From Sabellastarte sp. h YS-2021 (lineage: Eukaryota > Annelida > Polychaeta > Sabellida > Sabellidae), in assembly GCA_964017235.1 (NCBI GenBank), contig OZ024931.1:126677530-126741529 (forward strand): a stretch of 64,000 nt of DNA. Direction: 5' to 3'. Positions 38,261 through 47,600 of the stretch are shown piece after piece. Both the position numbers and the translations under genes were made by a program. The stretch's first letter is position 1. Every line of letters starts with the position of its first letter. Under the pieces are notes generated by a model, which had not been told where the DNA came from, did no database searches, and saw nothing but the letters and a program-made list of their open reading frames with translations.

Positions 38261-38430
38261 TTTTATTGCGCTACAATAGCTTACCATGTGGGACTGATTG
38301 CTGTTCTTGGATGGCCGCCAGGCCCGGCCAACGTCTAAGAAAAACAGACATTTATTGGTGGTCGTAGCCTCAGGTTGTTGTCACGTGATCTACCCCATTT
38401 GTCTTCTCCTTTCTTGTTGGCCGCCGCCAT
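38261..38430 (+). repeat. Left inverted terminal repeat of the outer type B DIRS
   Basis: It starts TTTTATTGCGCTACAATAGC and contains ACCATGTGGGACTGATTGC, GGCCCGGCCAACGTCTAAG and CAGGTTGTTGTCACGTGATC. The reverse complement lies at 50,960-51,085, almost 13 kb away, and ties the two ends into one element. Confidence 0.88.
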
Positions 38431-38523
38431 ATTGGAATATCTTGGGAAGTTTACTACCGTTTTTCTACTATATCTCAGTTCATTTTGTTTGTTGGATGTC
38501 TATTTTATTGCGTTAATACATCC

Positions 38524-38695
38524 TATCCAATGGACAATTGCTTTACCGGTCGGCGCGACCGGTCCCGCCAAACGACAGAAAAAGTCATTCTGTATAAAAT
38601 ACCGGCAGGACCGGTCACAGAGTGTACATTCGCCAGGTGTCGCCTCGTGCATACTTCCTGTCTAGTCAGAATGACGTCATCGCGTCTTTTTTCGT
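38524..38695 (+). repeat. Left inverted terminal repeat of the young DIRS (172 bp)
   Basis: It matches the reverse complement of 44,512-44,683 with a single difference. It contains three ACCGGT words, CGCCAAACGACAG and GAATGACGTCATCGCG, the last holding a palindromic TGACGTCA (CRE/ATF-type) word. It may serve as promoter and recombinase site; that role is inference. Confidence 0.93.
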
Positions 38696-38817
38696 TTGGC
38701 GCGTGAGTGTACAGACGTGTTTTTCTACTGTGGTGAAACGTTTGAATTTTGTAAAGACTACCTTTTATATTGAACTTTATTTTAATTTCATCTATTCTAC
38801 CTTACTTCTGGAGTATT

Positions 38818-40791
38818 ATGGCGTCCCCTGGACAAAGAAGAGGGACTTGTGGCCACGCTATGGCATTATTTGACTCCCACACCAAGTGTGCGCGTTGCCG
38901 TGATAAGGGGCTGGGCCAAGACGCATGTGTTGAGAAGAAGGACTGCTCCATTTGCAATAATTTCACAGCTGAGCAGAAGTTACAGTTGGCCACCCCCACC
39001 TATAGGGCCCGAAAAGATAAAGAACTCCAGAAGAAAACTGCCTCTCCCTCCCTTGTTGATCCGTCTTCAGTAACTGTTGTTGGGAAGGTTGAGAGTGGCA
39101 AGGGTGATTCTAGTGATAGAGGCGAAACCCCTTCTAAGAAGAAAAAGACCTCTCACAAATCCCCTAAGAAGACATCCAAGCCTCCGAAAGTGCCAGATTT
39201 TCAAGCTGACCTGAAATCCCTGGATGAGAAGTGGGCAGATCGCTTTACGCGTCTGGAGGCTCTCTTTTTGTCAAAGACTTTCCAGCTCCCGGTGGAACCG
39301 GTTCAGAGCTCCAATGTGGTGGTATCTGAGAAGCCCTTTATTCCACCAGCTCAGCAATCTACTAGCCAGAGTCCTGCTACCGGTTTGACCGGTAAGAAGA
39401 AGAAGACAGCCACCCAGCCTGTTGAGGCTCCCGGTGTGAAGAAGTCAGCCACCCAGCCTGTTGAGGCTCCCGGTGCTGAGACAGAGCTTCCACCAACCGA
39501 CCAAACTACAGTTTCCTCTGCTGGTGCCCCTGTTAGTGGTCGACCCGAGGTCCAGCCCCCAGGTCCCACTACTGCTGATCAACCGGAAGATTTTGCTTCA
39601 GAAGATGATCAGTTTAGTGACCAGCCTGACCTCAGTTTAGATGAGGGTGAACTGTCTGAAGTGTTGTCAGTAGGTCCGGATCATGAAGAACCCATAGAAA
39701 CGGACCAGGAGTTAAGTGCAGAACAGACCTACAGAGAGACTCTATGTGGTGTTAGGTCGTTTATGGGCTGGGAGCAAGTGCCAGAGTTTGACTCTTCTTC
39801 TTCTGCACAGGACGACAACCCCTTTGCTGGCACCAGACCTCAGTTGCCCGGTAAAGTTTCTGTGAAGGTTCCGGTGGATGACTGGCTATGCCGGAAATTT
39901 GAAAAACTTAATATTACTGTACAGGAAGGATACCCATCCCGGGCTTCAGAAACTGCTGGCTTAGTCAAAGATCAGTTTGTCAAACCACCAAGAACTCTTA
40001 AATGGTATGACATGCATACAGACAAGAAGGATTTCTCCAGATCCAAAGTGTCTTCCTGGACTAACCAACCGGCACGCCTCAACAGTAGCTTTCCTCGAAT
40101 TGCTAACCGGTCACTTCCTTCTGCTCCAGCCTCAAGACCTGTGTCACAGGATACGTTAAGGAAGTGGGAGAGAGCAGCCAGAGACCAAACTTATATGTGT
40201 AACCAGGCTGCCGCGTTTTCCCGTTGCCTCACCAAAGTGCAGGACTCTATGGCTTCTCAGTTGAAAGTGTTACAGAACGACAAGGGCAAGGGAAAATCTA
40301 CCGGTAAATCTCATCAGGCTGTTGAAGAACTGGACTTTCTAGTGACCTTTAACAAGAGCATCACACAGGCAATGGCCAGAACGATGCAAGATTTATCAGA
40401 TGGTGTCTTCATTAATGTGGCCAACCTTACGCTAGCTAGAAGGGACAGCTACCTAGATTATTTGAAAGCCGGAATCAAACAGGACACTTTGAACGCTCTT
40501 AGGTCTGCCCCTCTGCATATGAGTGCCTTGTTTCCGGATCATCTCATCAGCAAAGCTGAGGAAGAAATAAGACACCATGAGGATAAACGTTCTGCCGGTT
40601 CTTCACACAAGGGTCCCCAGCGTTTCCACCCTTACCACCAGTCCAGTAAACAACAGCAACTAGATCAGGACAGGAAACCCGGTCTACCTGCCTGGAAACA
40701 ACTGGGTAGAAGGCGTGGACAAAGATCTCACCGGGGTTGTACTGCTTCATTTTCTCAGCGACCTGCCAAGACACAGAAGCAGTATAAATGA
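38818..40791 (+). CDS. Gag-like protein of the young DIRS element
   Basis: 657 residues from the Met at 38,818 (MASPGQRR). An upstream in-frame Met at 38,770 exists, but the Cys-rich start aligns with other Gag copies in the window only from 38,818. The N-terminus carries Cys11, His13, His21, C24-x2-C27, Cys37 and C43-x2-C46, a possible metal-binding head kept in type A and B fossils. A Lys/Ser/Pro-rich linker, an acidic stretch (about residues 255-310) and a globular region with VDDWLCRKFEKLN and LKWYDMHTDKKDF follow. A short in-frame duplication (ATQPVEAPG twice) lies near residues 200-220. The expected role is packaging element RNA in particles, from family knowledge. The frame overlaps the next by 77 bases. 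Confidence 0.85.
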   Translation: MASPGQRRGTCGHAMALFDSHTKCARCRDKGLGQDACVEKKDCSICNNFTAEQKLQLATPTYRARKDKELQKKTASPSLVDPSSVTVVGKVESGKGDSSDRGETPSKKKKTSHKSPKKTSKPPKVPDFQADLKSLDEKWADRFTRLEALFLSKTFQLPVEPVQSSNVVVSEKPFIPPAQQSTSQSPATGLTGKKKKTATQPVEAPGVKKSATQPVEAPGAETELPPTDQTTVSSAGAPVSGRPEVQPPGPTTADQPEDFASEDDQFSDQPDLSLDEGELSEVLSVGPDHEEPIETDQELSAEQTYRETLCGVRSFMGWEQVPEFDSSSSAQDDNPFAGTRPQLPGKVSVKVPVDDWLCRKFEKLNITVQEGYPSRASETAGLVKDQFVKPPRTLKWYDMHTDKKDFSRSKVSSWTNQPARLNSSFPRIANRSLPSAPASRPVSQDTLRKWERAARDQTYMCNQAAAFSRCLTKVQDSMASQLKVLQNDKGKGKSTGKSHQAVEELDFLVTFNKSITQAMARTMQDLSDGVFINVANLTLARRDSYLDYLKAGIKQDTLNALRSAPLHMSALFPDHLISKAEEEIRHHEDKRSAGSSHKGPQRFHPYHQSSKQQQLDQDRKPGLPAWKQLGRRRGQRSHRGCTASFSQRPAKTQKQYK

Positions 40792-43102
40792 CAATCACTG
40801 TGTTCAGTTTGTGACAGGGCACTTGTCTCCTGTAAGTGTGACCGGTCAGAAGGACTTTTGTGTGACCGGAAAATTACAGACAGAAACTCAATTACCTGTA
40901 TATTGTCATGTTGCTTCTCATGTACCTTTTGCAGGAGGGTCGCCGCAAAAGAAAGGCGTAATTCCCGAACATCTAATGTCAGTAAAATCTGTGAAAGGTG
41001 TTTCCTGTGTAAATCAATTGAGTTCTGTACAAAATGTCACAAATGTCCCACTTGTTGTACCAAATCCTCCTGTAGGTTCAAGATTGCACGAGTTCTGGGA
41101 AAAATGGGCAGCCTTGGGTGTCAACCCCAAGGTCATATCAGTCCTCAGGGAGGGGTACATCCTACCCTTCCGGACCAGACCTTACTTGACCAGAAAACCC
41201 ATAGTAACAAGCTGCTATGCAGATCCTCACAGGAACAGCTACCTGTTAGAGGCATTGCATCAGCTATTAGACAAAAAGGCTGTAGAAGTGGTTCAAAATC
41301 CTCAATCCCTGGGCTTTTACAACCGGTTATTCCTGGTCCCCAAACCCAACAACCGGTGGCGACCCATCTTGGATCTGAGCAAACTAAACAATTATTTGAA
41401 AACACAGTCGTTCAAAATGGAGACACCAGAGACAATACGTACCTCCCTCCAGACAGGGGAGTGGGTGACTTCCATAGATTTCAAAGACGCATACTTCCAC
41501 ATACCTATAAACAGCCAGTCCAGGAAGTATATGCGTTTTCACCTTCAAGACAAGACTTACCAATTCAAAGCACTACCCTTTGGTCTGTCCACAGCCCCCA
41601 TGGAATTCACTGTGGTAGCCAAAGAGGTGAAATGGCTTGCAATGAGACAGGGTATAAGGATCCACCAGTACCTAGACGACTGGTTGGTCAGAGCCACATC
41701 CCACCGGGTTTGTCTTCAACAGACGAAAGATCTGGTGTTACTCTGCAGGGAGTTGGGGTGGCTGGTAAACGAGGACAAATCAGAGCTGGAACCCAAACAA
41801 GTTTTCAACTTCGTAGGCTACCAGTTCGACTTGAAGGAAGGCAGGGTCAGACCCACCATAGAACGTTGGCAGACCCTACAAAGCAAAATACTGGAGATCT
41901 TATCAAACCCAATCTGTCCGGTCCGGAAACTAATGTCCCTGATCGGTCTGTTAACTGCGACAGAGAAGCAGGTACATTTGGGCAGACTACACATGAGACC
42001 CATACAGTGGCATCTCAAGAACAATTGGAGGGTTCCAGAATCCCTGGAGAAGATAATTCCCATTCCAAAGTCACTCCACCCACATCTGAAATGGTGGCTG
42101 GAGGAAGACAATGTTGTTACAGGTCAACCTTTACACCCACTAGAGCATGCTCTGCAAATTTTTACAGACGCATCAAGAGAAGGGTGGGGTGCACACTTAA
42201 ACGAGCATATAGCAAGGGGAAGCTGGTCACTCCCGGAAAGCAAGCTGCACATAAACTACCTAGAGTTAAAGGCAGTTCTTTTGGCACTACAAGAGTTCCA
42301 AGCTCTCTGCATGAACAAGGTAGTTCTCGTAGCTACCGACAATACCACTGTGGTAGCTTACATAAACAAAGAAGGGGGAATGAAGTCGGGCCCCCTGTGT
42401 GCCTTACTTTGGAGGATCCTCACTTGGTGCACAAGAAATCAAGTGACCCTCAAAGCTCGACATATTCCCGGCCGTCTCAATGTGATAGCAGACAAATTGT
42501 CCAGACTGGGTCAGACCATCCAAACAGAATGGTCCCTCAATCCAGAGATTTTTCAAGCAATATGCAACCGGTGGCACACCCCTCAAGTGGGCCTGTTTGC
42601 CACAAGGTTCAACAACAAGCTCCCACAGTTTGTCTCACCGGTCCCAGACCCCCAGGCCTGGGCAGTGGATGCTCTCAGCCTGTCTTGGGAGGGACTGGAT
42701 CCATACGCCTTCCCACCAGCAGCCATCTTGGGCAAAGTGGTGGAGAAGTTACAGGACTACCCCTGCAACAGAATAATTCTGATTGCTCCAGGGTGGCCCA
42801 ACATGCCATGGTTTTGGGACCTGGTGGCAATGTCAAGCCAGATCCCACTGTGTCTGCCCAGCATACCCAACCTAGTGTCTCAACCATTCAACCAGGTCCT
42901 TCACAGGAACCTGTCGAATCTGAACCTGCATGCCTGGCTCCTAGAACCTCAGCAATCAAAGAGCAAGGCTTCTCTGAGGCAGTGGCAGCACGAATTGAGG
43001 CTCCTCAAAGAAGATCAACCAGATCTGTCTATGAGGCAAAGTGGACCATTTTTACAAAGTGGTGCCTCAGTAATCAGGTGGACTTCAGGGCACCACCTCT
43101 GA
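40715..43102 (+). CDS. Reverse transcriptase-RNase H polyprotein of the young DIRS element
   Basis: A 795-residue open frame; the first Met at 40,715 overlaps the Gag frame, so the true start is uncertain. RT signatures: RLFLVPKPNNRWRPILDLSK, then SIDFKDAYFHI (motif A Asp), ALPFGLSTAP, and YLDDW (motif C). RNase H signatures: FTDASREGWGAH, YLELKAVLLALQ, ATDNTTVVAYIN and NVIADKLSRL supply the Asp-Glu-Asp-Asp set. A C-terminal domain with VGLFATRFNNKLPQFVSP, AWAVDALSLSW and ILIAPGWPNMPWFW follows; this is the block that follows RNase H in DIRS proteins and is sometimes compared with Dam-type methyltransferases. It copies the element RNA and degrades the template. It reads in the +1 frame relative to Gag and YR. 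Confidence 0.92.
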   Translation: MDKDLTGVVLLHFLSDLPRHRSSINDNHCVQFVTGHLSPVSVTGQKDFCVTGKLQTETQLPVYCHVASHVPFAGGSPQKKGVIPEHLMSVKSVKGVSCVNQLSSVQNVTNVPLVVPNPPVGSRLHEFWEKWAALGVNPKVISVLREGYILPFRTRPYLTRKPIVTSCYADPHRNSYLLEALHQLLDKKAVEVVQNPQSLGFYNRLFLVPKPNNRWRPILDLSKLNNYLKTQSFKMETPETIRTSLQTGEWVTSIDFKDAYFHIPINSQSRKYMRFHLQDKTYQFKALPFGLSTAPMEFTVVAKEVKWLAMRQGIRIHQYLDDWLVRATSHRVCLQQTKDLVLLCRELGWLVNEDKSELEPKQVFNFVGYQFDLKEGRVRPTIERWQTLQSKILEILSNPICPVRKLMSLIGLLTATEKQVHLGRLHMRPIQWHLKNNWRVPESLEKIIPIPKSLHPHLKWWLEEDNVVTGQPLHPLEHALQIFTDASREGWGAHLNEHIARGSWSLPESKLHINYLELKAVLLALQEFQALCMNKVVLVATDNTTVVAYINKEGGMKSGPLCALLWRILTWCTRNQVTLKARHIPGRLNVIADKLSRLGQTIQTEWSLNPEIFQAICNRWHTPQVGLFATRFNNKLPQFVSPVPDPQAWAVDALSLSWEGLDPYAFPPAAILGKVVEKLQDYPCNRIILIAPGWPNMPWFWDLVAMSSQIPLCLPSIPNLVSQPFNQVLHRNLSNLNLHAWLLEPQQSKSKASLRQWQHELRLLKEDQPDLSMRQSGPFLQSGASVIRWTSGHHL

Positions 43103-44013
43103 AAGCCATTGCTGACTTCCTCCTACATTTGTTTCAGGATAGGAAGTTACAGCCAGGTACTATTGATGGCTACAGATCAGCCATTGCTGACAAACTGGGC
43201 AACTCCACCATTAATGTCAGCAAAGATGAGAATCTTACTCGTCTCCTGGATAGTTTCCATAGAGACAGACCCAAGGGCAGGAGGGGCATCCCCTCCTGGA
43301 ACCTTTCACTGGTACTACACCAGCTGACTAAGGCTCCCTTTGAACCCCTTAAAGAGGCCTCCTTGAAACACCTGACCTTCAAGACAGTTTTCTTATTGGC
43401 TTTAGGTTCTGGTAAACGCAGGAGTGAGATCCATGCTTGGCTTCATAAGAACATCAGACACCAATCAGACTGGTCCAAGGTGTCCTTATATCCCTCACCC
43501 AGCTTTCTGTCCAAGAACCAGCTGGCAAAGGAGGGTCCAGACAGTGTGGCCCCGGTGGTTATCCCAGCTCTGGCCCACACGCTAGATAGATCACTCAAGG
43601 GTGACAGGTCACTGTGTCCAGTTAGGGCACTACGTTATTATCTGGACAGGACCTCTGACCTCAGGCGGAACAAGGAGTTGGTCTTTGTCTCCTTCAAAAA
43701 AGGTTTTGACAAGGATATCTCCTCTGCCACTGTCTCTTCATGGATCAAACAGACAGTCATCCTATGTTATGAGCTCTCTGACCAGCAGGCCCTTAACTTA
43801 CATCAGGTGAAAGCCCATGATGTGAGGGCCTTTGCTGCCTCTAAGGCCTTCCAAGCTGGAAGTTCCTTAGAACAAATCCTATCAGCCTGCCACTGGAAAT
43901 CCCATAATACCTTCACACAATTCTATCTGAAGGATGTGGCTTGGGCTGATTCAGAGCTTTTCCATCTAGGGCCGGTCGTGGCTGCTCAGCAGATCCACCA
44001 CCAAGCCCAATAG
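42808..44013 (+). CDS. Tyrosine recombinase (YR) of the young DIRS element
   Basis: The frame is open from 40,858 (1,051 codons). The recombinase homology begins only near 42,940, and the Met at 42,808 gives a plausible 401-residue protein, so I use that start with moderate confidence. The N-terminal SAM-like core-binding part includes YEAKWTIFTKWC and TIDGYRSAIADKLG. The catalytic part has the first Arg in GSGKRRSEIHAW, the His-x-x-Arg in KAHDVRAFAA and the nucleophilic Tyr in FTQFYLKD. It would insert the circular DNA copy without target duplication. The frame overlaps the RT-RNase H frame by about 295 bases from this start. Overlap of RT and YR frames is known in DIRS elements; the expression mechanism cannot be told from sequence. 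Confidence 0.88.
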   Translation: MVLGPGGNVKPDPTVSAQHTQPSVSTIQPGPSQEPVESEPACLAPRTSAIKEQGFSEAVAARIEAPQRRSTRSVYEAKWTIFTKWCLSNQVDFRAPPLKAIADFLLHLFQDRKLQPGTIDGYRSAIADKLGNSTINVSKDENLTRLLDSFHRDRPKGRRGIPSWNLSLVLHQLTKAPFEPLKEASLKHLTFKTVFLLALGSGKRRSEIHAWLHKNIRHQSDWSKVSLYPSPSFLSKNQLAKEGPDSVAPVVIPALAHTLDRSLKGDRSLCPVRALRYYLDRTSDLRRNKELVFVSFKKGFDKDISSATVSSWIKQTVILCYELSDQQALNLHQVKAHDVRAFAASKAFQAGSSLEQILSACHWKSHNTFTQFYLKDVAWADSELFHLGPVVAAQQIHHQAQ

Positions 44014-44067
44014 GGAGGAGACATTCCTGTAAATATGTACATAATGTAGATACTTAGATAAGTATAA

Positions 44068-44198
44068 ATAAAAAAAAAAAAAAAAAACTGTGACATGCTT
44101 CCTTTGGGAGGTTTATTATTTCTTGGGACTGAACTCATCCCTCTCTTCCCCCACTCAGAGCAGAAATGCTTGGAAATAAAAAAAAAGGGGGGGGGAGC
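44068..44198 (+). promoter_or_regulatory. A-run with AATAAA and downstream polypurine tract
   Basis: About 50 bp after the YR stop lies GTATAAATAAA followed by an A-run. About 85 bp later AAATAAAAAAAAAGGGGGGG begins. The AATAAA may be a polyadenylation signal. The A-then-G tract recurs at the same relative place in the other DIRS copies here. Confidence 0.5.
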
Positions 44199-44354
44199 AA
44201 TGTCGGTTAAACTACCCGGTGAACTGGGTTCTGGTTACCGACTTAGGCCATTAGTGAGTAGCCTTCTTCAGGTCTACCTAGGCCAGAAAATTGTTAGTTT
44301 TGAGTTCACTCAAGTCCCTAGTAACTTACCCGCCAACCAAGCGGTAGTTATTCA

Positions 44355-44449
44355 GCAATTGTCCATTGGATAGGATGTATTAACGCAATAAAATTGCAAA
44401 TTTAATAAGTAAATTAAATTTTTATAAGTTAATACCCTATCCAATGGAC
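44355..44449 (+). repeat. Internal complementary region of the young DIRS element
   Basis: 44,355-44,394 is the exact reverse complement of the left extremity 38,503-38,542. 44,390-44,449 is the exact reverse complement of the right extremity 44,671-44,730. The halves overlap by five bases (AAAAT), so this 95-bp segment spells the junction of a circle formed by joining the two ends at a shared T-run. In the DIRS model it templates that closure. Confidence 0.93.
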
Positions 44450-44511
44450 GGACAAGACCCTCCCAACCGACCCCGCTATCAGCTTACTAGGGGTCTAATA
44501 GGTTTAGACAG

Positions 44512-44683
44512 CGAAAAAAGACGCGATGACGTCATTCTGACTAGACAGGAAGTATGCACGAGGCGACACCTGGCGAATGTACACTCTGTGACCGGTCCTG
44601 CCGGTATTTTATACAGAATGACTTTTTCTGTCGTTTGGCGGGACCGGTCGCGTCGACCGGTAAAGCAATTGTCCATTGGATAG
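44512..44683 (+). repeat. Right inverted terminal repeat of the young DIRS (172 bp)
   Basis: Reverse complement of 38,524-38,695 with one difference. The element continues 47 bp beyond it to 44,730 with an AT-rich extremity that differs from the left extremity. Confidence 0.93.
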
Positions 44684-47600
44684 GGTATTAACTTATAAAA
44701 ATTTAATTTACTTATTAAATTTGCAATTTTCTGCCATTTTGCTTATTAATAACTATAGATCATTTTACCTTATTTTTATTCCTTTCAAATCAGTAAATTT
44801 ACCATATTTCTTGTTGTGAGTTTTCGCCTCGGCTAGGCTTGTTTGTGATCGGGTAATCTTCCTTTATTGCGTGTTCAATATGTCGTCCCATCAAACCAGT
44901 AAAGACAAACCCCGTGCATCTAAATGCCATCATTTTTGTCACCCCTTCGACTCTCATAACTACTAGATTTTCAGAAATCTTTGCAAAAATCTTCTTCTCA
45001 AGTGGAGGTGGATCAGACCTCTGCTTAGGCTTCTAAACCTGGCCCACGTCTCGTACTCGTCTGGACCCCCCGAGTACTAATACCGTCGAGTCGATGGGCG
45101 TTGATTATGTCCCAGCCTTACCTCCACGCTTCGACTCTTATACTAGACGCCTCGGGTCAACATCTTAGTTCTGTCGAGAAACCCTTGAGGTTGCCCTTGA
45201 CCAAACCTAAAAAGTCTTCTCACTTTCACAAACAGTACACTATGGCCCCGACGTCTGCCTTGGACCACTACTCTGATCAATCTGAAGACTCTCAGCCTGC
45301 CCCTAGCCGGTCCAAAAAGCATACTGATAAAACACAAATCTAGGTCCAGATATGCACCTTCTTCTTCAGAGGAGGACCAGCCCTCTGAAGTCAGACATAG
45401 GTCTCCTAAGCCTTCAAAGAAGACTTGCCCTGATCAAGACCATCCTCAACATGACCCAGATCCTCCTTACTACAGGAAAGTAGCTTTGGTTGACATTCCC
45501 TCCCAATATGCAGAGGAGGTGGATACCTTTAGGCGTATCCTCAAACTTCCTGATCCTAGGGAGTCCTTACCTAGGTCATCCACTGCAGTGATGGTTCTTG
45601 ATGATGAGAAAGGTAGACAGGAGCTCAGACCAAGAGGCCCTTCCTCTATGCTGGCACTTAATTCCATTATCAAAAACGTCTTTGATAATTTTGACCATGA
45701 CTTTCAAGCAGCAAATTTACCTGAGGGTAAATATATAAAAGCTCCTCCATCCACTATCAAGTGGTACAATGTGGGACAGCCTTGTTATGAAGACAAGATA
45801 CAAGAACTAAATACAGACTTTGCTAAGACCTGTATTAGTCCTAAGCCCTCTGGGGCTCCTATTGGCAAGGTTCCCCTACCATTTCTCAAGGAATTGGAAC
45901 ACCAAGCGAGGCAGAATATTTCCACTCTTAATTTTGATACCACCTTTGCTAAGACTTCTTCCTCCTGCAATTCCACCCTGGAGAAGTGCCAGTATAGTCT
46001 TAAGTCGACTTTTAAGACAGTCAAGTCTCAAATTAAGAAAGGTGCTGATCCTGAAAAGCCATCAAAGCATGGATACGAGGATGCCTGTGAGTATCTAGAT
46101 CTCTGCAACAAGACTATTTTGATCCAGCACAGGGCCCTGACTTGACTCAGTAAATCACTTGCCCAGATACTCCAGAGGGAGTTATACTCAATGGGCAATA
46201 CTGGTTTGCTTAGGCGCGAAGCCAAAATGACCCTGTTACAACCACAATTAGGGGAAACGAGACGTCAGGAACTCAGGAATGCATCCTTTTGGCCGTCTTC
46301 CTTGTTCAAGTCTCAACTAGTCGAGGAAGGTGAAGACTTTCTTCTTTAAAAAGGCACCTCAAAAGACTCAAAAGAGCCCTTTCGTGGTCCCCACAAGAAA
46401 AGAGGCTCCTACAGAAAACGTCCCAATGGGGGCAATTCCTCTCAAAGCAGTAACCAGTCATTTTCCTCAGGAAGGGGAAAACCAAACTTTAGAGGCTCCA
46501 TTTGCCATTTTTGAGCCCACAATAGGGGAAGGGGTGTGGAAACCTCTCTTCCCGATGACTCCTCAAAAGCCTCCCGCAGTCCACCAGTAGGAGGTTGCCT
46601 CTGTTCTTTCAGAAGAGACTGGCAAACAACTGTTCATCTAACATGTTAAGCATTATCACCAATGGCTACGTACTGCCATTCCACTCAAAGCCAAACTTGG
46701 TCAGATTTCCTCTGATTCTGTCAGAGTACAAGGCCCTCCAAAAAGACCAAGATCTGGCTGATTGCATCCAGTTTCTTCTGTCAAAGAATGCTATCGAAAG
46801 GGTGGAAAATGTAAGACGCAGTCGCCTGTTTCTAGTCCCCAAGCCTCACCAAAGGTGGAGGCCAGTAATAGACTTAAGCAGGCTCAACACTTTTCTATAT
46901 GTAGAAAAGTTCAAAATGGAAACTCCAGAGTCCATCAGGACCTCATTGATTCCTGGGGAATGGGTATCGTTGGTCCCAGTCTCAAGAGGAAGCCCAAGTG
47001 AACAGTCAGGAAGTGGTAGTCTTGGGTGGATAATAAACCAGGAGAAATCAGGACTGAAATCTACTCAGGTGCTTTTGTGCGTGGGCTACGAATACCACCT
47101 AGATTCAGGCCTTGTAAAACCCACTCAAGAGAGATGGCTTAAACTTCAGGATTTGATCCTAAGACTCAAGTCAAACATGTTTTGACTGCAAGATGTTTGA
47201 TGTCGCTAATTGGGTTTCTTGCCTCAACGTAGAAAATGGTCCCGGAGGGATGCCTTTACATGAGGCCCTTTCAGTTTCATCTCGAGGAGATATCCTCAGT
47301 CGATGGACAGCCTCCTTCCCTGGACAGAAGCAATTTCTGCACACTAGACTGGTGGCAGAACCCCACAAATGTGATGATAGGCGCCTACCTTCATCCCAAA
47401 GACCACAGCATTCAACTCTTTACAGACGCTCAAACGAAGTTTGGGACGCTCACTGACTGTGGTCAGACGAGGAAAAAAGGCTACACATAAATGTTCTAGA
47501 GCTGAAGGCGGTCTCACTGGCCCTTCAAAGTTTCAAGGAACAGTGTCCGAACCAAACTGTGCTAGTTGCAACAGAAAACTCAACAGTGGCAGCCTACATA

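Follow-up and report, generated by a model that had tools for sequence, protein, structure and literature searches.

Positions 38503-44730 (+ strand) of the window, by which we mean throughout the whole 64,000-nucleotide stretch of Sabellastarte sp. DNA analysed here, hold a complete DIRS1-like retrotransposon, as judged from its inverted repeats, its internal complementary region (ICR), its open reading frames (ORFs) and the genome copies that have the same ends. The element and its immediate surroundings comprise the following features.

38300..38502, + strand: left flank, belonging to the older dispersed repeat into which the element inserted, with paralogues at 90-93%
38503..38506, + strand: left terminal core TTTT, supplied by the element and likewise TTTT in the left ends of sister copies
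38522..38694, + strand: left inverted terminal repeat (ITR), 173 nt, with one mismatch to 44512-44684
38818 (ATG)..40791, + strand: Gag-like ORF, an open frame assigned by its position and its resemblance to the window's other DIRS pieces
40715..43102, + strand: RT-RNase H ORF, 795 aa, matching Pfam RVT_1 and RVT_3; start codon GTG according to the ORF tool
40858..44013, + strand: open frame of 1051 aa ending in the tyrosine recombinase, its first 617 codons overlapping the RT ORF in another frame
42709..44013, + strand: tyrosine recombinase (YR) domain, with a Phage_integrase match and catalytic-type motifs; the start is our choice
44354..44449, + strand: ICR, exact over 96 nt; its reverse complement is the circle junction, with core TTTT
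44512..44684, + strand: right inverted terminal repeat, pairing with 38522-38694
44685..44730, + strand: right extension (rE), whose sole match is the ICR
44727..44730, + strand: right terminal core, target-derived in sister copies, where it varies and equals the target core at two readable loci
44731..44930, + strand: right flank, in which the same target repeat continues

In its architecture the element is an ordinary DIRS1-like one and represents a new member of a superfamily already known: it features ITRs, an ICR complementary to both ends, an RT-RNase H and a tyrosine recombinase, there is no target duplication, and it sits at a core in the target that may differ from the element's own. 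The two halves of the ICR match the ends exactly, with 44354-44394 the reverse complement of 38502-38542 and 44390-44449 that of 44671-44730. This agrees with the first-pass annotation of this DNA, which had called the complementary region exact and the inverted termini different at a single base; we place the repeat length at 173 nt, against the 172 bp given there. The mismatch itself, G at 38553 against 44653 (A when the complement is read), is private to the right arm of the window copy, with G on both sides in 18/18 other aligned copies; an inherited subfamily difference is ruled out, the mismatch being private to the window copy among the 19 aligned.

The RT-RNase H frame matches RVT_1 at E 4e-20 and RVT_3 at E 1e-6, both above cut-offs, and the YR domain matches Phage_integrase at E 8e-5, below the curated cut-off. 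YLDD, TDAS, ATDNT and R...HxxR...Y-type stretches are present in the element's frames, and the YLDD, RNase H-type and YR-type stretches are taken to hold the catalytic residues. The earlier description of open Gag, RT-RNase H and YR frames with their motifs is sustained, Gag being without a Pfam match (the Gag frame checks in the copies started at 38821). No Pfam or NCBIfam match to an MT domain was found in the stretch after RNase H, which is the position of that domain in the literature and which matches other DIRS pieces in the window. Those other pieces are fragmentary, as had also been claimed, or run off the window's end; remnants of further DIRS families lie at 45.5-51.1 kb and 52-64 kb, with ICRs of their own near 50.8 kb and 59.2 kb.

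The long frame at 40858-44013 stays open in a 9%-diverged genome copy of the element (L012), where simulated divergence introduces a mean of 7.0 stops and leaves none in 0.1% of cases (2000 simulations, P 0.001); the test is weakened by the partial decay of L012, which was the one diverged copy compared and has stops in Gag and RT. Amino-acid constraint on the frame overlapping RT is unsupported in the comparison with L012, which yields 25 synonymous vs 88 non-synonymous codon changes there and 60 synonymous and 51 non-synonymous ones in the RT frame. At 40858-42708 the window thus offers 617 second-frame codons that are stop-free in a 9%-diverged copy and unconserved in their amino acids.

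Junctions between the element and host DNA

The insertion can be set beside paralogues of the target repeat that lack the element: in all 15 extracted, which we chose from the lists of flank matches, exactly 4 nt lie between the two flanks (TTTT in 7, TATT in 7 and TGTT in 1). The insertion is therefore clean, as a tyrosine recombinase would leave it, and lies at one 4-nt T-rich core. Empty sites carry this one core and filled sites one core per end, and it is at the two ends of the filled sites that sister copies become informative.

A sample of copies selected by neither end was obtained with an internal 401-base piece as query (best 40 of 7223 candidates scored). Of these 37 were tabulated, the others being one further copy inside the carrier transposon described below and two pieces at one rearranged place, and 31 independent copies remained after four carrier duplicates, one flank-sharing copy and one copy with an unreadable right end were dropped. 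The left core is TTTT in 31/31, 11 of these being taken from left-end alignments that begin at base 1 and not read letter by letter, and the right core is something other than TTTT in 21/31, with none of the copies reversed. Two of them, L025 and the copy at C2:35.2M, share one satellite position and are of uncertain independence; counted as a single event, they bring the latter figure to 20/30. In copies chosen by their right end (best 40 of 1712 scored; 20 of the 26 places absent from the left-end list taken) the left core is TTTT in 16/16 true left ends, three of the remaining four being unreadable even in wider stretches and one being an ICR, while the right core is TTTT in 15/20 and different in 5/20, all five of which have a TTTT left end. 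Where copies are chosen by the left end, the right core departs from TTTT in 12/19 of the aligned ones and, for a further 18, in 13 of the 17 readable, the remaining one being GTTT. The sister copies suggest that the ends join host DNA in a fixed, lopsided way.

A tally of 40 independent right ends, two of which had been picked through the right end itself, finds T at core position 3 in 39; position 2 holds T in 30 and A in 9, the first base beyond the core is T in just 2, and the one that follows it is T in 27. Of the 40 cores, 17 are without TTT at positions 2-4 and 14 without TTT anywhere. Direct evidence that the right core comes from the target is limited to two loci, each lying in a tandem repeat: at L016 the right core GTTT is that of 7/8 neighbouring monomers, and at L025 the right core ATTT is that of 9/9. 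L012 departs from the target-core rule by one T in a T run, the tandem neighbours of L028 are too diverged for the target core to be read, and eight other copies in this comparison gave no neighbouring match. Several copies are found inside tandem repeats (L016, L025 and C2:35.2M, the last seen as L100/L101), L025 and C2:35.2M occupying an identical position in one 169-bp satellite.

Irrespective of the right end, the core of the ICR is TTTT in 19/19 aligned copies, and the ends therefore appear to be reset each cycle. A second DIRS family, with a representative at about 46-51 kb in the window, gives a concordant picture in its right ends and ICRs (best 40 of 1114 scored, 14 cut out): the ICR core is TTTT in 14/14 copies, and the right core is not TTTT in 4 of the 8 right ends read, two of those four sharing a flank. 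One locus of this family, L128 (C5:106.55M), holds a head-to-tail tandem that runs from a right end through one TTTT into a left end, and such a tandem with a single TTTT fits circle-type joining. A candidate two-element tandem of family A at L070 was rejected, since its apparent junction belongs to the ICR of a nearby element in opposite orientation; such inverted neighbours accompany family-A copies both there (C4:111.77M) and at L024 (C6:9.73M).

A proposed insertion cycle and competing modes of exchange

Circle closure and genome entry of tyrosine-recombinase retrotransposons rest largely on models. For the present family we propose a cycle in which the RNA copy would lack the outermost ends of the element, and the ICR, serving as template or splint, would restore both and close the circle, giving the junction GCAA-TTTT-ATTGCG. 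The YR would then recombine this circle with a target site, frequently one that conforms to A|NWTT|VT, crossing once immediately to the left of the core; the target core would thereby be left at the right end, to be erased in the next cycle. One crossing point would account for both junctions and is what one-strand exchange followed by replication should produce; strictly biased repair of a two-strand exchange would lead to the same junctions.

It is quite possible, if short of probable, that the exchange is an ordinary staggered two-strand one involving a double-stranded circle, in which mismatch repair or segregation would yield the lopsided ends by favouring one and the same strand every time. 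Known tyrosine recombinases as a rule make staggered cuts, and the circle junction presents the YR-like inverted arms GCAAT-TTT-ATTGC. Unbiased segregation, however, would be expected to leave about half of the copies reversed, and of the 21 informative copies not one is (0/21, binomial 5e-7); a two-strand exchange would therefore need a very strict bias.

A more doubtful reading has the YR act on a circle junction that is single-stranded and folded, exchanging one strand, with replication completing the insertion in the manner of an integron cassette. It would explain both junctions with its single crossing point, and linear single-stranded cDNA intermediates have reportedly been described for DIRS in a paper of 2020, to go by its title. 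The circle junction, taken as the reverse complement of the ICR, is predicted to fold strongly as single-stranded DNA (z -9.15), with GCAAT-TTT-ATTGC at its tip, and the junctions of three second-family copies, which represent two distinct sequences since two are identical, reach z -9.95, -12.68 and -12.68; much of such a fold, however, is automatic from inverted termini, weaker folds are obtained for two other families from their copies in the window (z -7.0 and -4.9), and the single-stranded substrate is itself a predicted fold. Junction folds vary among copies and families, with the main stem following from the ITRs, and on these grounds conserved small hairpins beside the junction were dropped as proof of a single-stranded substrate.

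Family age, passive multiplication and mosaic copies

The first-pass annotation had suggested looking for near-identical copies across the assembly, and a search of the 1.79-Gb genome with the first 198 bases of the element (best 40 of 2011 candidates scored) returned at least 36 copies, the window copy included, that are identical over these bases, together with 4 more at 99%. The left end recurs without a difference at no fewer than 35 further places, which makes an assembly artefact of the termini, raised earlier as a caveat, unlikely, and we regard the termini as genuine. Near-identical copies are spread over many contigs. Twenty of the 39 other left-end places were extracted, of which 18 were aligned end to end (19 with the window copy); L010 and L024 are truncated or rearranged and stand outside this alignment. 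Six of the extracted copies lie 0.22-0.29% from the window copy over 6.2 kb, and pairwise differences within the window copy's group of seven are 0.08-0.31%. Distances to the window copy are 0.43-0.52% for L021 and L026, 0.92-1.01% for another group of seven, 0.93-1.16% for L013 and L027, and 9% for L012. Set against 13 other copies, the window copy shows 7 substitutions of its own over 6.2 kb. Among the 19 aligned copies, 11, the window copy included, have Gag, RT-RNase H and YR frames that are all open, and five of the 11 are carrier-borne duplicates of one another. The DIRS family is young and recently amplified; the few private substitutions, the near-identical copies and the related empty sites all accord with the earlier picture of a young, structurally whole element.

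Five of the extracted copies (L011, L015, L020, L022 and L023) are embedded in common flanks, at least 788 bp on either side and 99.6-100% identical, and the DIRS elements inside them differ by 0-0.03%. In searches with these flanks (best 40 of 5681 and best 40 of 1408) the two sides pair at 38 loci, 32 of them empty with a 4-nt gap and 6 with 6234-6235 nt at that same site; in the sixth loaded copy (C1:31.35M) the DIRS is known from end and internal matches, and a surplus flank match near C5:143.80M reflects a local duplication. With a 501-base query from further right in the carrier, 37 of the 38 candidates, all of them scored, matched at 100% and one at 99%. The carrier's left terminus, read in two copies, is CACTG, and by alignment (best 40 of 537) the left end falls at or before CACTG in 37/38 and at its second base in one. 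Two carrier copies are colinear for 20 kb except for tandem arrays, with the right end lying further out, and a 917-aa ORF gives a weak Pfam match to DUF4218 (E 0.0075, below cut-off). The CACTG terminus and DUF4218 are taken by us as pointing to CACTA elements. We take the carrier for a probable CACTA-like DNA transposon that acquired a DIRS element in one copy, which then multiplied with its load; repeated DIRS insertion at the same carrier site is less likely because the carrier-borne DIRS copies are nearly identical. As a transposon in its own right, the carrier can be followed from L029:1272 onward with L031 and L141 (C18:43.56M), and it is very young, at least 20 kb long and furnished with 140-bp tandem arrays.

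Because six DIRS copies ride in this CACTA-like transposon, copy number overstates transposition. Near-identical copies may be multiplied by another transposon, and such copies should not count as retrotransposition. Of the earlier claim that the element marks recent activity of its lineage, recent amplification stands; the qualification is that some near-identical copies were multiplied by the carrier DNA transposon and not by retrotransposition. Elsewhere L028 and L054/L126 (C4:70.53M, C3:51.35M) form a pair of copies with both flanks in common, which makes them a likely second case of passive multiplication. That most near-identical copies stem from segmental or satellite duplication together with the carrier, the DIRS lineage having been silent for some time, is very improbable: the flanks shared by the five extracted copies, and those common to C4:70.53M and C3:51.35M, would agree with it, but among the 31 sites with both ends read after shared flanks were collapsed nearly all have flanks of their own.

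When L011, taken as representative of the carrier group, is compared with the window copy, 46 of the 57 substitutions fall within 43303-44502, a segment over which L011 has 20 differences to L012 vs 50 for the window copy; 22 of the 30 L011-window differences in 43103-44013 are at third codon positions. L011 being nearer L012 in 43303-44502, DIRS lineages thus seem, on this sequence comparison, to exchange segments. It is the YR-3'UTR segment (43303-44502) of L011's group that seems to come from a different DIRS lineage. The differences being clustered in mosaic fashion, a true 0.9% subfamily split between the window copy and the carrier group was rejected as a simple measure of age.

To the single-crossing cycle with ICR-restored ends proposed above we would add two further processes: some copies would arise passively, one insertion having been multiplied inside a CACTA-like DNA transposon, and mosaic exchange would take place between DIRS lineages too. 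The account as a whole, that is, a young DIRS1-like family with clean, lopsided insertion, ends restored from the ICR, spread by a carrier and mosaic exchange, is very probably right. Two of its points deserve to be kept: that insertion has a fixed polarity, and that a DNA transposon has multiplied copies passively.

Comparison with known systems

The carrier resembles EnSpm/CACTA elements in its CACTG terminus and in the weak DUF4218 match of its 917-aa ORF, and differs in that this match stays below cut-off and the right end lies beyond the stretch read. A DIRS element carried by a CACTA element was not found in the literature covered, most subscription papers lying outside that coverage.

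With the DIRS1-like elements of animals, as described in PMC3266345 and, for Xenopus DIRS, in PMC9210276, the window element has in common its three ORFs, ITRs, 3' ICR and right extension, as well as NTT-type ends, a length of about 6 kb and the long RT/YR overlap of some members. Long ORF overlaps occur in half of the 28 elements treated in PMC3266345. The published DIRS model, as PMC3266345 presents it, has recombination with an identical 3-bp target, whereas many targets here are not identical to the element's core, and polarity is fixed. In our recount of Table 3 of the same paper (PMC3266345), 18/28 elements fit the circle junction at both ends and 7/28 fit it at the start and not at the end; two have a 2-bp junction, and one of the 28, AcasDIRS1, is reversed, with a left and without a right extension, a pattern suggesting that the polarity goes with the extension. 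Target-derived right ends would explain the mismatched end triplets in that published table (PMC3266345).

The lopsided joining suggested by the sister copies makes the poorly understood insertion step of DIRS elements testable, and the family offers natural filled and empty sites within one genome. No study of DIRS insertion polarity was found by title or by the start of the abstract, most subscription papers again being outside coverage. Integron cassettes (attC) are likewise handled by a tyrosine recombinase, which acts on a folded single strand by one-strand exchange. The likeness is one of mechanism only and not of membership, the DIRS substrate here being a predicted fold, and one-strand exchange of this kind would give the same one-sided junctions. 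As a tentative model, which we rate as possible and rather unlikely, DIRS elements may be eukaryotic retrotransposons that integrate much as integron cassettes do, through single-strand exchange at a folded circle junction, host replication finishing the insertion and the ICR resetting the target-derived right core in each cycle. The rule read from this family, in which the left core is TTTT, the right core comes from the target and the ICR is invariant, tells unbiased two-strand exchange apart from exchange that is one-stranded or strictly biased.
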